Assembly: GCA_002256985.1 (NCBI GenBank)
Contig: NCGO01000016.1
Coordinates: forward strand, 1-60,658
Length of the DNA: 60,658 nt
Source of the DNA: Novosphingobium sp. 28-62-57
GTDB taxonomy: Bacteria > Pseudomonadota > Alphaproteobacteria > Sphingomonadales > Sphingomonadaceae
Direction of reading: 5' to 3'
The notes under the pieces were generated by a model that saw nothing but the letters and a program-made list of their open reading frames with translations, ran no database searches and had not been told where the DNA came from. Positions 40,810 through 47,014 of the stretch are shown here, in pieces. Numbering within the stretch: position 1 is the first letter of the stretch; each line of letters starts with the position of its first letter. The position numbers and the translations under genes were made by a program.

Positions 40810-41061
40810 TTACTCGCCCTTGGCGGCCGCTTCCAGTGCGTCGATCCGGGCTTTCAACGTTTCCACTTCCTCGCGCGCGGTGGCGGCGAGTTCCTTGACC
40901 GCGTCAAATTCCTCGCGGCTGACCAGATCGAGGCCGCCAAAGATTTCGCGGGCCTTTTCGCGCGCGTTTTCACCCGCTTCGCGGCCCATTCCGGCAATCG
41001 TCCCGGCGGCGCTGTTCAGCAGCTTGACGAAATCGGCGATGACGGGATTTTCACTTTGCAT
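40810..41061 (-). CDS. ubiK: UbiK family accessory factor (BMFP domain)
   Basis: An 83-residue, strongly helical and charged protein: MQSENPVIADFVKLLNSAAG, then LVSREEFDAVKELAATAREEVETLKARIDALE at the C-terminus, which is a coiled coil that trimerises in relatives. UbiK (YqiC) is an accessory factor of the ubiquinone biosynthesis metabolon and interacts with lipids. I chose the ATG at 41061; the frame is open to 41130 but that part looks non-coding. A TspO gene lies upstream on the same strand. Confidence 0.87.
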   Translation of the reverse strand: MQSENPVIADFVKLLNSAAGTIAGMGREAGENAREKAREIFGGLDLVSREEFDAVKELAATAREEVETLKARIDALEAAAKGE

Positions 41062-41148
41062 CGGGCTTTGATCCTGATTGGCGTTATGCCTGCTATGTGG
41101 GCAGGCCGCGCGCAACCCGCAAGTGCCCATATTGGCAATCGGACCGGA

Positions 41149-41703
41149 TCAGATTTCCACGCGCACGACGCTGGAGGTTCCGAACTTGCCATCGGCATCA
41201 GGGTTCAATTGCAGGAACTGGTAAGTCAGCACTGCAGCAAAGCAGACCCACGCCAGATAGGGCAGCATCAGCATTCCGGCGACCGGGCGAATCCGCCAGA
41301 ACAAGGCAAGCGTGACGACAATGGCCACCGCCATCGCCACCGTGATCCAGAAGGCCCCGGTAATCTGATGCAGCGCAAAGAATGTGGGCGACCATGACAG
41401 GTTGATGATCAGTTGCACCACGAAGGCTGCCGTCGCCAAGGCGCGGCCCTGTGCTCCGCGCGCCGACAGGATCATCGCCAACGCGATGCCGATCATCACA
41501 TAAAGGATCGACCAGACGATCCCGAAAGCGGCAGGCGGTGGATAGATCGCCGGTTTTTCAAGCGCATCGAACCACGGATTGCCCGGCCCGCTACCAGCCG
41601 CCTGACCAGACAGGAACCCGAGGGCAACAACGAGCGGCACCGTGAAGAGTGACCAGCGCAGCAGGCTGGCACGAAGTTGGCCGGAGGAAGCAAGGTAGTT
41701 CAT
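41149..41703 (-). CDS. tspO: TspO/MBR family protein
   Basis: A 184-residue protein with five membrane helices. The TspO hallmarks are NPWFDALEKPAIYPPPAAFGIVW (the WF..L.KP...PP..F..VW pattern), NLSWSPTFFA and PYLAWVCFAAVLTYQFLQLN. TspO binds tetrapyrroles and cholesterol-like ligands and in photosynthetic alphaproteobacteria regulates pigment genes. This copy has a normal length plus a short N-terminal extension. The ATG is at 41703. Confidence 0.93.
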   Translation of the reverse strand: MNYLASSGQLRASLLRWSLFTVPLVVALGFLSGQAAGSGPGNPWFDALEKPAIYPPPAAFGIVWSILYVMIGIALAMILSARGAQGRALATAAFVVQLIINLSWSPTFFALHQITGAFWITVAMAVAIVVTLALFWRIRPVAGMLMLPYLAWVCFAAVLTYQFLQLNPDADGKFGTSSVVRVEI

Positions 41704-41837
41704 GTCACCCGTTGGTTGTGCGCCTGTTCAACGTGGTGCGGCGCGATTCGCCGTGGATATTGGCGGGGTGCAGGCTTGTGCGCAATGCAGGTTCAATCCT
41801 GCGGCAATCCCGGATGGACACGAAAACGGGGGAAAAC

Positions 41838-42605
41838 TCAGCTTCTATGAGCACTGATCAGGAATTCGACATTGCCTTCAGGCCCGGTGATCGGGCTTTG
41901 CACAATCCCCTGCACCGTCCAGCCTGGGCATTCTGCTCCATTTTCCAGCCAATTGCGCACGTCTTCGCACACGCGGCTGTGCAGGGCGGGATCGCGCACC
42001 ACCCCGCCTTTACCCACTTCGGCTTTGCCCACTTCGAACTGCGGCTTGATCAGCGCGACCAGTTGCGTTGGCCGCGCGGCAAGCGCCAAAGGCACCTCCA
42101 GCACTTTGTGCAGCGCGATGAAACTGGCATCGCAGACCACCCAGGTGACCGGTCGGTCGATATGCGCCGGCGTCAGAATACGCGCGCTGGTCTGCTCCAG
42201 CACCGTCACCCGCGGGTCCTGCCGCAGCTTCCATGCCAGTTGGTTTGTGCCTGAATCCACGGCAAAAACATGTTCAGCGCCGCCTTGCAGCAGCACGTCG
42301 GTAAATCCGCCGGTGGAGCTGCCGATGTCCATCGCGATGACCCCTTTCGGATCGAGCCCGAAGTGTTCGATCGCATGCGCCAGCTTGATCCCGCCGCGCG
42401 AAACCCACGGATGGTCGCGTCCGCGCACGTCAAGCGGCGCCTCCAGCGGCAGCGATTGCCCGGCCTTGGCAATCTTGGTTTCGCCCGAGAACACCAGCCC
42501 CGCAAGGATCAGCGCCTGCGCGCGGGCGCGGCTTTCGGCAAGGCCGCGTTCGACCAGCAACTGATCGGCGCGCAGCTTCTGTTTGGGTGAATGGGTTGAG
42601 GTCAC
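41838..42605 (-). CDS. tlyA: TlyA family 16S/23S rRNA 2'-O-methyltransferase
   Basis: A 255-residue protein: N-terminal S4 RNA-binding domain (KLRADQLLVERGLAESRARA), then an FtsJ-like methyltransferase with GVIAMDIGSSTGGFTDVLLQ (SAM-binding motif I), VFAVDSGTNQLAWKL, the VVCDASFIAL block and ALIKPQFEVGK. Family members methylate the 2'-O of ribose in 16S and 23S rRNA, which sensitises mycobacteria to capreomycin. The GTG at 42605 follows a strong GGAAGGGAAG site, so I prefer it to the ATG at 42632, which would overlap the start of the divergent lipoprotein gene. Confidence 0.9.
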   Translation of the reverse strand: MTSTHSPKQKLRADQLLVERGLAESRARAQALILAGLVFSGETKIAKAGQSLPLEAPLDVRGRDHPWVSRGGIKLAHAIEHFGLDPKGVIAMDIGSSTGGFTDVLLQGGAEHVFAVDSGTNQLAWKLRQDPRVTVLEQTSARILTPAHIDRPVTWVVCDASFIALHKVLEVPLALAARPTQLVALIKPQFEVGKAEVGKGGVVRDPALHSRVCEDVRNWLENGAECPGWTVQGIVQSPITGPEGNVEFLISAHRS

Positions 42606-42630
42606 GCCGCTTCCCTTCCATACCTGCCCC

Positions 42631-43197
42631 ATGAAGATCAATCGCCCAGCGCCATTCGCCCCGCTTTTTTCAGGCACGCTTTTTTCAAGGCTAACTGTTG
42701 CCTGTGCCCTTGCCCTGATGGCCAGCGCCTGCAGCGCGCCGCAGATGGTGCCGCCGCCTGCGCCGCAACCCACCACCCGGCCTGCGCCGCCCCCGCCGCC
42801 GATCCCGCAATCACCGCCGATCAAGGACTGGCGCGATGCGCCGCAGACCGCGGGCGATTGGCGTTATGAAAGCGGCACCGCGCAATTCGGTTCGGCCACG
42901 TCGACCCTTTTCGCCTTGCGTTGCGACCGTGCAAACCGCACGATCAGCCTGTTTCGGACCGGAAATGCACCGCAAGACTTGCCCATGACCGTCTCCACCA
43001 CCAGCGAAACCCGCTCGCTTCTGGCCACGCCGCAAGGGGCGGCGCAACTGGCAGTAACCCTGCCCGCCAACGACCGCCTGCTTGATGCGATGGCCTTCAG
43101 CCGGGGGAGATTTGCGGTAGAGGTTAATGGCCTGCCGACGCTCTATCTTCCAGCATGGCCGGAAGTGGCGCGGACGGTCGAAGATTGTCGCAGATAA
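42631..43197 (+). CDS. Hypothetical proline-rich lipoprotein
   Basis: A 188-residue protein. The signal peptide ends in a lipobox-like MASACS (Cys34). A proline-rich linker (residues about 40-63) leads to a small C-terminal domain with DWRYESGTAQFGS, ALRCDRANRTISLFR, LDAMAFSRGRFAVEV and WPEVARTVEDCR; two cysteines (in ALRCD and EDCR) could form a disulphide. The domain occurs, as I recall, in other sphingomonads as a hypothetical protein; I cannot name the family. It is divergent from tlyA. Confidence 0.7.
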   Translation: MKINRPAPFAPLFSGTLFSRLTVACALALMASACSAPQMVPPPAPQPTTRPAPPPPPIPQSPPIKDWRDAPQTAGDWRYESGTAQFGSATSTLFALRCDRANRTISLFRTGNAPQDLPMTVSTTSETRSLLATPQGAAQLAVTLPANDRLLDAMAFSRGRFAVEVNGLPTLYLPAWPEVARTVEDCRR

Positions 43198-43333
43198 CGC
43201 CGCTGCGACCTGTCGTTTCGCAACTGCGAAGGCGCGCATAGTGACGCCAAAATAATTTCATGCAAGACTTGTTGTTTGCCAGCGAATGAATCACATTGAA
43301 GCCAAGTCAGCAGGGCACGGCACCTGCGGCCCA

Positions 43334-43351
43334 GCAGCCTGAAAGGGCTGC
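43334..43351 (+). promoter_or_regulatory. Small hairpin upstream of the micro-ORF
   Basis: GCAGCC (43334-43339) pairs with GGCTGC (43346-43351) around a TGAAAG loop. It ends 19 bases before the extended Shine-Dalgarno sequence at 43371. It may be part of a structured leader of the micro-ORF transcript. Confidence 0.4.
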
Positions 43352-43385
43352 GATTTGGCTCAACAGCGCGAAAGGAGGTGATCCG

Positions 43386-43442
43386 ATGTCTCATGGTTCA
43401 GCACAGAGGTCGGTACAGTCCCGCGCGAGGCATTATCGCTGA
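43386..43442 (+). CDS. 18-codon micro-ORF with extended Shine-Dalgarno sequence
   Basis: The ORF encodes MSHGSAQRSVQSRARHYR, a basic peptide with four Arg and two His. It is preceded at 43371-43384 by AAAGGAGGTGATCC, which is complementary over 14 bases to the usual 3' end of 16S rRNA, with 7 bases between GGAGG and the ATG. A small hairpin lies upstream and a strong hairpin lies downstream (43499-43531), so the region looks like a self-contained short transcript in the 415-base gap between the lipoprotein gene and ilvE. The peptide is not rich in Ile, Leu or Val, so a classic attenuator for ilvE is unlikely. I do not recognise it. It may be a real small protein, or an RNA that captures ribosomes. 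Confidence 0.55.
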   Translation: MSHGSAQRSVQSRARHYR

Positions 43443-43498
43443 GTTTCGATTAAGCGATAGAGGCTTCGTGGGCGGCACTTCCGGCCGCTGACCATGCG

Positions 43499-43531
43499 AA
43501 GGGCCGCTTCGGATTGACCGACGCGGCCCTT
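43499..43531 (+). terminator. Strong hairpin, probable terminator of the micro-ORF transcript
   Basis: AAGGGCCGC (43499-43507) pairs perfectly with GCGGCCCTT (43523-43531), and inside the loop TCGG pairs with CCGA. The following CACATTTATTAC is only moderately T-rich. It separates the micro-ORF from ilvE. Confidence 0.65.
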
Positions 43532-43614
43532 CACATTTATTACAGCCCCCTTGCGTTTCACGCAACAATAGTTCACGGCGCTGCATCTTCGATTCTAGCG
43601 CAAGGACTGCCCCA

Positions 43615-44715
43615 ATGGCGACGCCCGCCGAAAACAGCCTGACTTTTGCTCACCATCCGCACCCTTCCCCGGTTGCTGCGGACGTGCGGGCGCAAGTGCT
43701 GGCCAACCCCGGCTTTGGCGCTGCCTTCACCGACCATATGGTCGAAATCGACTATACCGAAGGGTCCGGCTGGCACGATCCCCGCGTCATTCCCTATGGC
43801 CCGATCGCGCTCGATCCTGCGGCTGCCGTGCTGCATTATGCGCAGGAAATCTTCGAAGGGCTGAAGGCCTATCGCCTTTCAGATGGCGGCATCGCGCTGT
43901 TTCGGCCCGAGGCCAATGCCCAGCGCTTCAACGCCTCGGCCCATCGCCTCGCCATGCCGGAATTGCCCGAAGACCTGTTCGTCGAAGCCGTGCGCCAGCA
44001 GGTGCTGATCGACAAGGACTGGTTCCCCACGGTCGAAGGCGGATCGATGTATCTGCGCCCCTTCATGTTCGCCAGCGAGGCCTTCCTCGGTGTGCGCCCG
44101 GCCAGGCAGTACAAGTTCATGGTCATCGCGAGCCCGGCGGGCAACTATTTCAAGTCGGGCGCACCTGCCGTTTCGATCTGGGTTTCGGACTATACCCGCG
44201 CGGCGCCGGGCGGCACAGGCGCAGCCAAGTGCGGCGGCAACTACGCCGCCAGCCTTGTCCCCACGGCAGAAGCCTTCTCGCGCGGGCACGATCAGGTGCT
44301 GTTCCTCGATGCCGCCGAACACAAATGGGTCGAGGAACTGGGCGGCATGAACCTGTTCTTCGTGTTCGACGATGGCTCGATCCTGACCCCCGAACTCACC
44401 GGCACGATCCTGCCCGGCATCACCCGCTCCAGCCTGCTGAAACTGGCCGCCGAAGAGGGTCTGACCGTGCGCGAAGGCCGCTACAGCCTTGACCAGTGGC
44501 AGGCTGATGCTGCTTCGGGACGCTTGCTCGAAACCTTTGCTTGCGGCACCGCTGCGGTGGTCACCCCGGTGGGCAAGGTTGCAAGCCAAACGGGCGAATT
44601 TGCCATCGGATCGGGCGGTCCGGGCCAATTGACGCAAAGCTTGCGCGCCAAGCTCGTCGGCATCCAGCGCGGCGAGATTGCTGACACGCATGGCTGGGTA
44701 AAGCGCATCGCCTGA
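43615..44715 (+). CDS. ilvE: Branched-chain amino acid aminotransferase
   Basis: A 366-residue fold-type IV PLP enzyme that transaminates Leu, Ile and Val with 2-oxoglutarate. The PLP lysine is K205 in GGTGAAKCGGNYAASL. Other family blocks are LHYAQEIFEGLKAYR, SMYLRPFMFASEAFLGV, WVEELGGMNLFFVF and FACGTAAVVTPVG. The length fits the 340-370 residue bacterial/eukaryotic BCAT2-like type rather than the 309-residue E. coli type. AAGGA lies 9 bases before the ATG. The promoter probably lies between the hairpin at 43531 and the start. Confidence 0.95.
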   Translation: MATPAENSLTFAHHPHPSPVAADVRAQVLANPGFGAAFTDHMVEIDYTEGSGWHDPRVIPYGPIALDPAAAVLHYAQEIFEGLKAYRLSDGGIALFRPEANAQRFNASAHRLAMPELPEDLFVEAVRQQVLIDKDWFPTVEGGSMYLRPFMFASEAFLGVRPARQYKFMVIASPAGNYFKSGAPAVSIWVSDYTRAAPGGTGAAKCGGNYAASLVPTAEAFSRGHDQVLFLDAAEHKWVEELGGMNLFFVFDDGSILTPELTGTILPGITRSSLLKLAAEEGLTVREGRYSLDQWQADAASGRLLETFACGTAAVVTPVGKVASQTGEFAIGSGGPGQLTQSLRAKLVGIQRGEIADTHGWVKRIA

Positions 44716-44754
44716 AGGCCAACCCGTAAACTACACACGCAAACAAAGCACCAT

Positions 44755-44839
44755 GCGCCCCCGCGCAGGCGGGGGCCTCAGGGTTGTTACGGAACCCAAG
44801 CGTAAAAGGCCTGAGGTCCCCGCCTGCGCGGGGACGCGG
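44755..44839. repeat. Dispersed GC-rich paired-hairpin repeat (family A, copy 3)
   Basis: Left hairpin GCGCCCCCGCGCAGGCGGGG and right hairpin GTCCCCGCCTGCGCGGGGAC, with GTTGTTACGGAACC between, as in the copy at 6864. It follows ilvE and may act as its terminator. Confidence 0.82.
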
Positions 44840-44897
44840 ATTGCGTTCAGGCAGTTGTCATTCCGCAATCATCATGGCATCGCTCACTCCGAATTAA

Positions 44898-44914
44898 ACG
44901 CCCAGTTAGGGCGT
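44898..44914 (+). promoter_or_regulatory. Small inverted repeat before the SDR gene
   Basis: ACGCCC (44898-44903) is repeated in inverse as GGGCGT (44909-44914), 17 bases before the SDR start codon. It could be an operator or a hairpin in the 5' leader near the ribosome binding site CGGAG. Confidence 0.35.
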
Positions 44915-44931
44915 CACCCGGAGTGTCTTGC

Positions 44932-45840
44932 ATGACCATTTCCTTCGAAGGCCGCGTGGCCATCGTCACCGGCGCAGGCGGCGGACTGGGCCGCGCCTAT
45001 GCGCTCGAACTGGCAAAGCGCGGCGCGAAAGTGGTGGTCAACGATCTTGGCGGATCGCGCGATGGCACCGGCCATTCGGACGCGGCGCTCAAAGTGGTCG
45101 AGGAGATCGAGTCTGCGGGCGGCGAGGCGATGCCAAACGGCCGCTCGGTCAGCGAATACGAACAGATGGTCGAAATGGTCGCCAAGGCCCGCGAGCGCTG
45201 GGGCGGCGTCCACGTGCTGATCAACAACGCCGGCATCCTGCGCGACAAGAGCTTCACCAAGATGGACCCGGCTGACTTTGAGACGGTAGTCAAAGTCCAT
45301 CTGATCGGCTCGGCCTTCGCCACCAAGGCCTGCTGGGACCTGATGCGCGAACAGAACTACGGCCGCATCCTGATGACCGCCTCGTCCTCCGGCCTGTTCG
45401 GCAACTTCGGCCAGGCCAACTACGGCGCGGCAAAGCTGGGCGTCGCAGGCCTTGCCAAGACGCTCTACCTCGAAGGCGCGAAGAACAACATCAAGGTCAA
45501 CACGCTGGCCCCCGTCGCCGCCACGCGCATGACCGAAGACATCTTCCCCGAAGAAGCCTTCAAGCTGTTCAACCCCGAAACCGTCGTGCCCGCCGCCCTC
45601 TTCCTCGTCTCGGAAGACGCCCCCACCAACGCCATCGTCGGCGCAGGCGCTGGCGGCTATCACTCGGCTTGGGTCACGATGAACAAGGGCGTGTTGCTGC
45701 CGCCTGCAGAGCAAACCGTCGAAGGCTTCGCCGCGAACTGGGACAAGATCAGCGACCGCGCGGATGATTTCGTGCCGCGTTCCGGGCCGGAGCAGGCGCA
45801 CATAATCATCAGCCAATTGCAGGCGGCGATGAAGGGGTAG
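44932..45840 (+). CDS. SDR family dehydrogenase (peroxisomal MFE-2/HSD17B4-like hydroxyacyl-CoA type)
   Basis: A 302-residue short-chain dehydrogenase. The NAD(P)-binding TGAGGGLG is at residues 13-20, VNDLGGSRDGTG follows, NNAG is at 98-101, and the catalytic Ser (SSS at 151-153), Tyr164 and Lys168 lie in TASSSGLFGNFGQANYGAAK. The VVNDLGG-(R/S)DG pattern and the long C-terminal tail fit the (3R)-hydroxyacyl-CoA dehydrogenase domain of multifunctional enzyme 2, here as a stand-alone protein. It probably acts in fatty acid or steroid side-chain oxidation (family inference). ATG 44932 has CGGAG upstream; a GTG at 44923 is an alternative. A small lipoprotein gene starts 10 bases after the stop. 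Confidence 0.88.
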   Translation: MTISFEGRVAIVTGAGGGLGRAYALELAKRGAKVVVNDLGGSRDGTGHSDAALKVVEEIESAGGEAMPNGRSVSEYEQMVEMVAKARERWGGVHVLINNAGILRDKSFTKMDPADFETVVKVHLIGSAFATKACWDLMREQNYGRILMTASSSGLFGNFGQANYGAAKLGVAGLAKTLYLEGAKNNIKVNTLAPVAATRMTEDIFPEEAFKLFNPETVVPAALFLVSEDAPTNAIVGAGAGGYHSAWVTMNKGVLLPPAEQTVEGFAANWDKISDRADDFVPRSGPEQAHIIISQLQAAMKG

Positions 45841-45850
45841 GTGTAGAAAG

Positions 45851-46210
45851 GTGCGCTATTTCGTTTTGGTCCTTGGCCTCTTGCTGGCCTCATGCACAGT
45901 TCAGCCAAAGAACGAAGCGCAGAGGGTTGCATTGCAAGCCGTTCGGGCAGCCGAAAACGGAGATCACGAGACGTTGGAGCGCCTGACCAAAGGAGCGAAG
46001 TTGCCTCCTTATCTAACGCCACCATCTGGTCTGACTTTGATGGCAATCCTGACTCCACCAAATTGTGATGTCGATCGGCTTTGGGGACCCGATGCAGATA
46101 GCCCGGCTACGCAGGTGCAATGGACTTGTGATTACGAAGCAGGACGTGAAATCAACTTCACTGTTCGCGACGGCCGGATCGTCGAGGTCGACTGGTATCC
46201 CGAAGAGTAA
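45851..46210 (+). CDS. Small hypothetical lipoprotein
   Basis: A 119-residue protein starting with GTG. The signal peptide MRYFVLVLGLLLASC ends in a lipobox with Cys15. The mature part has a helix (NEAQRVALQAVRAAENGD) and a compact region with two cysteines (NCDVDRLWG, WTCDYEAG) ending GRIVEVDWYPEE. I do not recognise the family. Its base composition is less GC-rich than its neighbours, a possible sign of acquisition. It may be cotranscribed with the SDR gene. Confidence 0.6.
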   Translation: MRYFVLVLGLLLASCTVQPKNEAQRVALQAVRAAENGDHETLERLTKGAKLPPYLTPPSGLTLMAILTPPNCDVDRLWGPDADSPATQVQWTCDYEAGREINFTVRDGRIVEVDWYPEE

Positions 46211-46234
46211 CGGTAGAAGCCGAGATGGCCAATC

Positions 46235-47014
46235 TTACTCCGCCCGCAACACCACCACGATCCCGCCCTCAGGCACCGCATCCCCCGCCAGCACTCGCAC
46301 GGCATCAGCCCTCGCGCGCGACAGGATCTCCGGCGCTACGCCAGCATCATACACCACCACGTCCGCCTGCCCGAGCAGCCGCGCGGTGCGTAGCGTGAGG
46401 TCCTCAGGGTTGTTCGACGTCAGGACAATCTCGAACCGCCCCGACTGCCCCTCGGCGCCCGCAGCGAGCCACGCACCGACCTTCCCCTCGCTCCCGGCCC
46501 GGAACAGGTCCAGTTCCCCGCCCTCATCCAGCGCCGCGTCCAGCGCCCGCCGCCGATCAGCCACTGACGCCCACCGAGCCCGCATCCCCTCGCGCGCTTC
46601 TTCAAGCGCCCTTGCCAGCGCGCCCAACCCTTGCGGTAGCAACCGCTCCAGCCGCAGCCGCAAAATCTTCGCCAGCCCCGCCGAAGCCCCGCCCGTCCCC
46701 ACCGCGATCAGCACCGGGTCACGGTCCAAAATCGAAGGCGTGGTGAAATCGCACAGTTCGGGCCGGTCCACCACGTTGACCAGCAGCCCCGCACAGCGCA
46801 GCCGGATCGCATCGCCCTGCGCCATGTCGGGATTGTCGTGCGCGATGAAGGCCAGCCGCGCGCCGTCGTCGATCCCGGCGTTGATTTCGCGGTAGATCAC
46901 CCCGCCTGCGCGCTCAATCAGGCGCTGCTTGGCGGCTGCCGCATCCCCCTCACCCAGCAGGATCACCGGCTGGCCCGCGATGCGGTGAAAGAGGGGGAGG
47001 CTGTGGAGGGTCAT
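46235..47014 (-). CDS. Siroheme synthase N-domain protein (precorrin-2 dehydrogenase/ferrochelatase-like) with a vestigial SUMT segment
   Basis: A 259-residue protein. The N-terminal Rossmann domain (LPLFHRIAGQPVILLGEGDAAAAKQRLIERAG) and VNVVDRPELCDFTTPSILDRDPVLIAVGTGGASAGLAKILRLRLE blocks are those of CysG-N/Met8, which makes siroheme from precorrin-2. After the dimerisation region the last 60 residues (SNNPEDLTLRTARLLGQADVVVYDAGVAPEIL) look like the first part of a uroporphyrinogen III methyltransferase, but the GxGPGD-type SAM loop is altered and the rest of that domain is absent. So it is either a shortened CysG or a specialised form; a separate SUMT would be needed. Siroheme serves sulfite and nitrite reductases. 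Confidence 0.8.
   Translation of the reverse strand: MTLHSLPLFHRIAGQPVILLGEGDAAAAKQRLIERAGGVIYREINAGIDDGARLAFIAHDNPDMAQGDAIRLRCAGLLVNVVDRPELCDFTTPSILDRDPVLIAVGTGGASAGLAKILRLRLERLLPQGLGALARALEEAREGMRARWASVADRRRALDAALDEGGELDLFRAGSEGKVGAWLAAGAEGQSGRFEIVLTSNNPEDLTLRTARLLGQADVVVYDAGVAPEILSRARADAVRVLAGDAVPEGGIVVVLRAE

Follow-up and report, generated by a model that had tools for sequence, protein, structure and literature searches.

The Rfam family RF01867 (caulobacter sRNA CC2171) is typed in that database as a small RNA (sRNA) gene, and the scan output for it carries no mention of an open reading frame (ORF). In Caulobacter, 75.4% of the coding genes have no Shine-Dalgarno (SD) sequence, and two RNAs earlier predicted to be non-coding (ncRNAs) turn out to be translated, as reported by Schrader et al. 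(2014; PMC4117421). We analyzed a relative of the CC2171 RNA that lies on the forward strand of a 60,658-nucleotide (nt) stretch from Novosphingobium sp. 28-62-57 (Sphingomonadales, Alphaproteobacteria; contig NCGO01000016.1, positions 1 to 60,658, hereafter the window). It combines an extended SD, a micro-ORF of 18 codons and a long-range helix, P1. Comparison with related loci establishes the conservation of the start, the stop, the reading frame, the SD and P1, and the presence of promoter-like sequence upstream. Listed as an sRNA of Caulobacter, the family appears to represent a gene widespread in Alphaproteobacteria, in which a start codon, a stop codon and an SD of 13-15 nt are kept.

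Results

A diverged homologue of CC2171 in Alphaproteobacteria

An Rfam scan of positions 41000-46500 placed RF01867 at 43362-43529, with 49.4 bits, an expectation value (E) of 2.5e-8 and coverage of model positions 1-159 of 159. This score is below the curated cut-off of 75, and the window element is a diverged homologue of RF01867 and not a formal member. The initial annotation of the window, made from the sequence without database searches, had linked this layout to no described family, a statement that the Rfam match corrects. RF01867 also matched all 20 diverged stretches of the class that were tried, out of 49 collected (E 2.9e-15 to 0.07; one of the 20 above the cut-off). As a control at E up to 1, weak matches came from 6 of the 14 control genomes, with the cut-off exceeded in one, and there are five further weak places in the window's own genome (E 0.003-0.99). 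The 5′ block CGAAAGGAGGUGAUCC..UGUCUCAU is common to the element and RF01867, and both also have a long-range helix as well as a terminal hairpin; the RF01867 consensus reads GUG UCU CAU after the SD. The element differs in P1, which is CATGG/CCATG in the window and CAUUG/CAAUG in RF01867, and likely in having a longer 5′ leader. We found no account of a micro-ORF in the CC2171 family in the literature searched, which was accessible in part only.

A search of public genomes with the 25-base pattern GAAAGGAGGTGATCCNRTGTCTCAY gave at least 120 matching stretches. Pattern searches recovered the element in 22 of 385 genomes of the class, including 5 of 5 genomes of the window's own family in that sample, and in 168 of 296 genomes of an order sample, including 10 of 16 from the same genus. 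In the other six of these 16 it was found by R1, a sequence-only model of the 5′ block, with the SD reading GGTGACC, the same start and an 18-codon ORF, so that pattern and model together place the element in 16 of 16 sampled same-genus genomes. The model alone, at E up to 5e-4, matched 87 of 290 class genomes, though some few of the weakest matches may not be members. With a limit of 1e-4 on E, it matched 46 of 199 genomes sampled across the phylum, all 46 in the window's own class; the share of that sample lying outside the class is not listed. Several relatives of the window (L195-L198, L200, L201 and L203) carry the SD with the one-base deletion (GGTGACC) and keep the start codon and the 18-codon ORF, and are natural variants of SD length.

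An extended Shine-Dalgarno sequence with a start codon at fixed spacing

The sequence GAAAGGAGGTGATCC (Table 1) is complementary to the 3′ end of alphaproteobacterial 16S ribosomal RNA (rRNA) and is followed, after a gap of 1 nt, by ATG. A perfect 14-base match to the 16S tail had been annotated here, and it stands: AAAGGAGGTGATCC at 43371-43384 has 0 mismatches, the seven further window sites found with up to 3 mismatches allowed all having 3, and the pairing reaches one base further 5′, to G43370, for 15 nt in total. The exact 15-mer is single-copy genome-wide, and the seven further sites found with up to 2 mismatches allowed all have 2. A search for the 16S gene of the source genome gave 0 matches, as the same search did in 5 of 14 control genomes, and the 16S complement was therefore read in relatives. 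The tail GGATCACCTCCTTTCTAAGG is present in one of eight same-family genomes (G613), the remaining seven giving no match, and the antisense 16S sequence AGAAAGGAGGTGATCCAGCC was seen in three genomes of the class (L214-L216). The duplex of the extended SD with the 16S tail is predicted at -28.0 kcal/mol, compared with -8.7 kcal/mol for GGAGG alone.

Conservation was read in the class sample, where the 5′-block model matched 90 places: 79 were read together (78 distinct loci, window included), nine were read separately, and G055 and G170 (weak) were left out. The perfect 15-mer is found in 57 of the 78 distinct loci, and changes fall mostly within its last four bases. An A to G change at one position, seen in 10 loci, keeps the pairing via G-U, and the commonest SD variant, GTGGTCC, still pairs through G-U. 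The possibility that the SD is a chance match or an rRNA remnant was rejected: the similarity to 16S stops right after GATCC, the sequence is conserved, and a chance match is excluded because GAAAGGAGGTGATCCNRTGTCTCAY recurs in the public genomes counted above.

The codon at +16 in these 78 loci is ATG in 44, GTG in 28, TTG in 5 and GCA in one, L294, which is the only locus lacking a start codon and may not belong; the base preceding it is free (A40 G26 T6 C6). The sequence patterns behind the two sets of relatives required RTG, and start-codon counts were taken instead from the model-based set. Because RTG sequences also went into building R1, these counts are biased towards TG; TTG was found nonetheless. 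Where the start was left open in the pattern, in the order sample, it is ATG or GTG in all among the matches listed. At the start position each of the nine matches read separately has ATG or GTG; their ORFs comprise 23-26 codons in five cases, 39 in one and at least 50 in three (L204, L207, L209), so that ORF length is less well kept in this group.

Masking of the SD by an internal anti-SD shows a weak tendency, with a mean z of -0.49 in 51 Sphingomonadales regions and -0.67 in 58 other regions, of which 2 and 10, respectively, lie within the lowest 5% of shuffles. The mean z is -1.16 in 50 diverged loci picked by hand, 13 of which fall below -1.64. We treat such masking as a lead and do not claim it. 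A run GGAGCAACCTTC/GGAGCAGCCTCC is present near ORF position +55 of MSS-type loci (L205, L208, L212 and others), in differing reading frames; this run might base-pair with the SD or fold into a small hairpin.

A reading frame that ends within the domain closed by helix P1

The start and the 18-codon ORF of the initial annotation were found as described. Across the class, the frame that they set contains an ORF of 14-36 codons in 74 of 77 loci; in the shifted frames, ORFs of this length number 19 and 22. The three longer in-frame ORFs resemble signal-peptide ORFs. Complete ORFs from Sphingomonadales (n = 54) have 18 codons in 50 cases, 16 in two, 19 in one and 20 in one, and their stop codons interchange (TAA 26, TGA 24, TAG 4). 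The length in frame 0 has a standard deviation (sd) of 0.5 codons in 51 Sphingomonadales loci and 2.3 in 56 others, versus 12.1-22.4 in shifted frames. The stop falls inside the P1 domain in 107 of 107 distinct loci in frame, compared with 82 and 79 in the shifted frames and with shuffle means of 37.6 of 51 for Sphingomonadales and 31.9 of 56 for the others (about 69 together); this set consists of P1-positive loci.

P1 itself is supported by covariation in 57 of 73 aligned references, preselected as P1-positive with a short loop. In these, 36 cells are changed on both sides of the helix, against 10.0 (sd 2.8) in shuffles, and the covariation score is 0.327 against 0.149, with 0 of 500 shuffles as high in either measure. 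Pairing holds in 96.7% of P1 cells, compared with at most 45.5% when the partners are slid by 1-3 columns, and one pair occurs as UA33 GC16 CG7 AU1. P1 and the hairpin that follows were found in 110 of 118 loci, that is, 120 loci plus the window minus three Azospirillum-like loci whose ORF is like a secreted protein. Four loci (L013, L026, L031, L115) end too soon in the available DNA, and P1 is lacking in four (L011, L051, L083, L092) among the 114 that reach far enough. It shows as GTGA/TCAC ahead of the terminator in MSS-type loci. A loose P1 scan of the 78 class loci, with 55 positive against 35.9 expected for a shuffled 5′ strand, is too loose to count. In the window RNA, P1 has a predicted energy of -12.9 kcal/mol and a pair probability of 0.56-0.99 that varies with the assumed 5′ end; the minimum free energy (MFE) fold includes it for 5′ ends at 43299 and 43355.

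An identical or almost identical extended SD and start codon also precede a different ORF of about 50-59 codons, in L047, L075, L087, L136/L238, L207, L256 (Azospirillum-like), and in L204 and L279. By eye this ORF resembles a small secreted protein, with a signal peptide followed by Cys and SH; the three that were tried gave no significant Pfam match. Genome G712 carries both a secreted-like ORF (L256) and a short-ORF gene (L234).

Conservation of the peptide

The initial annotation had proposed synonymous change as a sign of a coding gene, and this part of it fails in Sphingomonadales even as the start, the stop position and the frame are kept. The ratio of nonsynonymous to synonymous change (pN/pS), taken from pooled pair counts of related sequences and carrying no error estimate, is 1.40-1.84 in frame versus 0.57-0.70 in the other two frames. 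Mean entropies by codon position across 42 distinct 18-codon Sphingomonadales ORFs are 0.89, 0.92 and 0.65 (codons 4-18), the third position being the least variable. A coding sequence would show the reverse of this pattern, which agrees with constraint on the RNA.

Peptides differ among clades (MSHGSA.., VSHC..TWI.A and MSSE..EQPS). Of 56 occurrences of CTGG, 43 share one phase even though lengths vary. In MSS-type loci the nucleotide run GCAACCTYC/GCAGCCTYC recurs in differing frames, as read by eye. Some genomes hold two copies of the element, for instance G012 (L222 and L246, with an MSHG-type and an MSHC-type copy) and G707 (L268 and L272).

Gene layout and neighboring genes

The features of the locus are collected in Table 1. 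A transcription start is expected near 43304. Of 54 Sphingomonadales loci, 36 have CTTG and a -10-like box upstream of the SD (33 of these with a spacer of 18 nt), versus 1.7 expected in shuffles; these and the following counts are pattern matches and not mapped starts. Outside Sphingomonadales, a -10-like box is found in 18 of 63 loci (3.1 expected), and 17 of these end 18-21 nt before the SD, which would place the 5′ end of the RNA close to it. The region 43299-43535 folds at -117.9 kcal/mol (z -5.5), and 0 of 200 shuffles are equally stable. The hairpins that had been annotated before and after the micro-ORF are both predicted by this fold, and the one 3′ of P1 is also present in the alignment of relatives; the very long SD, the start codon, the short ORF and the flanking hairpins of that description are all conserved. 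The locus looks like a free-standing gene for a structured RNA of roughly 230 nt, with promoter-like sequence and a terminator, and not like an ilvE leader. We infer that the RNA is transcribed and translated in this organism.

Table 1. Positions of the RNA gene's features in the window
Feature	Position	Strand	Basis or remark
Promoter-like element CTTGTT-N18-CACATT	43268..43297	+	read from sequence; putative
5′ leader domain, predicted stem-loops	43300..43360	+	MFE fold of 43299-43535; prediction only
Extended SD, 15 nt complementary to 16S 3′ end	43370..43384	+	sequence matching and predicted duplex
18-codon micro-ORF, MSHGSAQRSVQSRARHYR (ATG 43386-43388, stop TGA 43440-43442)	43386..43442	+	start codon kept at this place in 77/78 distinct class loci
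Helix P1, 5′ strand CATGGTTCAGC, starts at codon 3	43392..43402	+	covariation in 57 sequences
Helix P1, 3′ strand GCTGACCATG, immediately 5′ of terminator	43487..43496	+	alignment and pair probability
Terminal hairpin AAGGGCCGC...GCGGCCCTT then CACATTTATTA	43499..43531	+	fold; probable terminator, poor T tract

Synteny was counted in 121 sequences (120 loci and the window). The gene ilvE (Aminotran_4) starts at 43615 on the same strand as the RNA gene. Among the 45 Sphingomonadales loci that extend far enough, 15 have a homologue of it within 1 kb downstream; none of 50 other loci does. The ORF at 42583-43197, upstream of the RNA gene, has a homologue in the corresponding position in 48 of the 55 Sphingomonadales loci and in none of 66 others. 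The window copy of this ORF is lipoprotein-like by eye and matched no Pfam family in a Pfam search. Downstream of ilvE, at 44756-44837, a large inverted repeat (a sub-cut-off MIR8670 match) is probably a terminator or repeat element.

Discussion

The reading to which we give about even chances is that the product of the locus is a small RNA, structured and translated, for which the capture of ribosomes and a brief round of translation count for more than the peptide. The SD would pair with the 16S tail over 13-15 bases, ahead of a start codon at fixed spacing, and the micro-ORF (18 codons here, mostly 14-36 elsewhere) would end inside the domain that P1 closes. P1 starts 6 nt after the A of the start codon and lies within the stretch that a 30S subunit must clear; initiation and P1 therefore exclude each other, as follows from the geometry of initiation complexes, and a bound 30S would have to open the helix. 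The long SD could supply the binding energy to capture the subunit and open P1. With the 30S bound and the ORF translated, P1 and its inner structure would be open and the RNA held, and probably also protected, by ribosomes; without 30S engagement P1 would close. The peptide would be mostly a by-product in Sphingomonadales. Because a long SD is able to pay for opening P1 and strong SDs near the 5′ end can hold 30S subunits (the STAB-SD discussed below), we favor an RNA whose state is governed by ribosome engagement, the short ORF being translated in the course of the cycle; that it works as a switch, and with what output, we put forward as a hypothesis only. A bolder version, which we consider unlikely, is that the RNA senses free ribosomes throughout the class. 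Its fold, lifetime or activity would then depend on whether a 30S, captured by a nearly full copy of the anti-16S sequence, is able to open P1 and translate the short ORF, the length of the ORF and not the peptide being selected.

Several observations weigh against a translated RNA whose peptide matters little. Folded alone, the RNA leaves the SD only about half unpaired (mean 0.50-0.54), and the MFE fold lacks P1 for 5′ ends at 43303 or 43304, although its pair probability is then 0.56-0.62. Two of the five covariation measures for P1 are weak: double-change pairs number 4 against 2.7 (17 of 500 shuffles), and further pair types 8 against 7.9 (348 of 500). Outside Sphingomonadales, the pN/pS of 25-codon ORFs is 0.59-0.94 (0.86-0.96 in the other frames) and Trp stands at codons 10-17 in 41 of 61 distinct peptides, so that constraint on the peptide is possible there. 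Finally, the accessible text of Schrader et al. (2014; PMC4117421) describes Caulobacter ncRNAs as mostly intergenic, from regions that ribosome profiling shows as untranslated.

The peptide data from outside Sphingomonadales also speak for a small-protein gene, whose functional product would be a clade-specific peptide of 18-26 residues, with the long SD serving only for strong translation. The kept start, stop, frame and length suit it, as does the single phase of CTGG. Against it stand third codon positions that vary least and pN/pS above 1 in Sphingomonadales, the differences between the peptides of different clades, and the recurrence of one nucleotide run in differing frames of MSS-type loci; we regard it as possible, if on the improbable side. 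The opposite extreme, an untranslated decoy that titrates free 30S subunits via the 15-nt match only, would account for a match far in excess of what translation needs, for the strength of its predicted duplex and for an SD whose commonest variant still pairs. It gives no reason for a start codon at fixed spacing or for an in-frame stop, and we think it very improbable. The options raised by the initial annotation (a small protein, a ribosome-sensing leader or a titrating RNA) are best combined, as a translated ORF on a functional RNA.

Two further explanations invoke partners other than the ribosome. The SD-like stretch could act as a sponge for sRNAs with an anti-SD sequence, such as the SisA-D family of Caulobacter, whose members carry a 10-mer with an anti-SD signature, according to the accessible part of the paper that also describes a sponge RNA acting in that organism (PMC12559287). 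Complementarity exists in principle; it runs on through GATCC, however, matching 16S beyond CCUCC, and a sponge leaves the start and stop codons unexplained, so that only a slim chance remains for it. A leader peptide or attenuator controlling ilvE, to which the initial annotation had tied the element, is suggested by that gene's position downstream on the same strand. It was rejected, and we consider it the least credible of these readings: ilvE follows in few Sphingomonadales loci and in no others, a terminator-like hairpin stands between it and the micro-ORF, and the peptide MSHGSAQRSVQSRARHYR has no run of Ile, Leu or Val. Neither feature of an amino-acid attenuator, a run of regulatory codons and a conserved biosynthesis gene downstream, was found.

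If ribosome engagement is the function of this structured, translated small RNA, the availability of ribosomes would have a natural read-out in a class whose model organism, Caulobacter, initiates most of its genes with no SD, and the RNA would offer a clear test of the effect of very strong SD pairing in the cell. The RF01867 family should not be taken as non-coding by default.

Among described systems, the STAB-SD of the cry3A messenger RNA (mRNA) is similar in that a strong SD close to a 5′ end is able to retain a 30S subunit and protect the RNA; the available part of that account describes it as not directing initiation (PMC4113751), whereas here a start codon at fixed spacing, seen by comparison in 77 of 78 loci, and an ORF follow. 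The dual-function sRNA rnTrpL-peTrpL of Sinorhizobium is, as far as the accessible text goes, also a short RNA with a micro-ORF (PMC10117765), translation being suggested in our case by comparison only. It differs in that rnTrpL is leaderless and derives from trp attenuation, while the RNA gene described here is free-standing and has an extreme SD. In Staphylococcus aureus, extended SD sites likewise pair with 16S beyond the core and, in the portion of the study available, are reported to aid weak start codons (PMC13009471). Those sites are found in many mRNAs, whereas here 13-15 paired bases are kept across a class in one small RNA.
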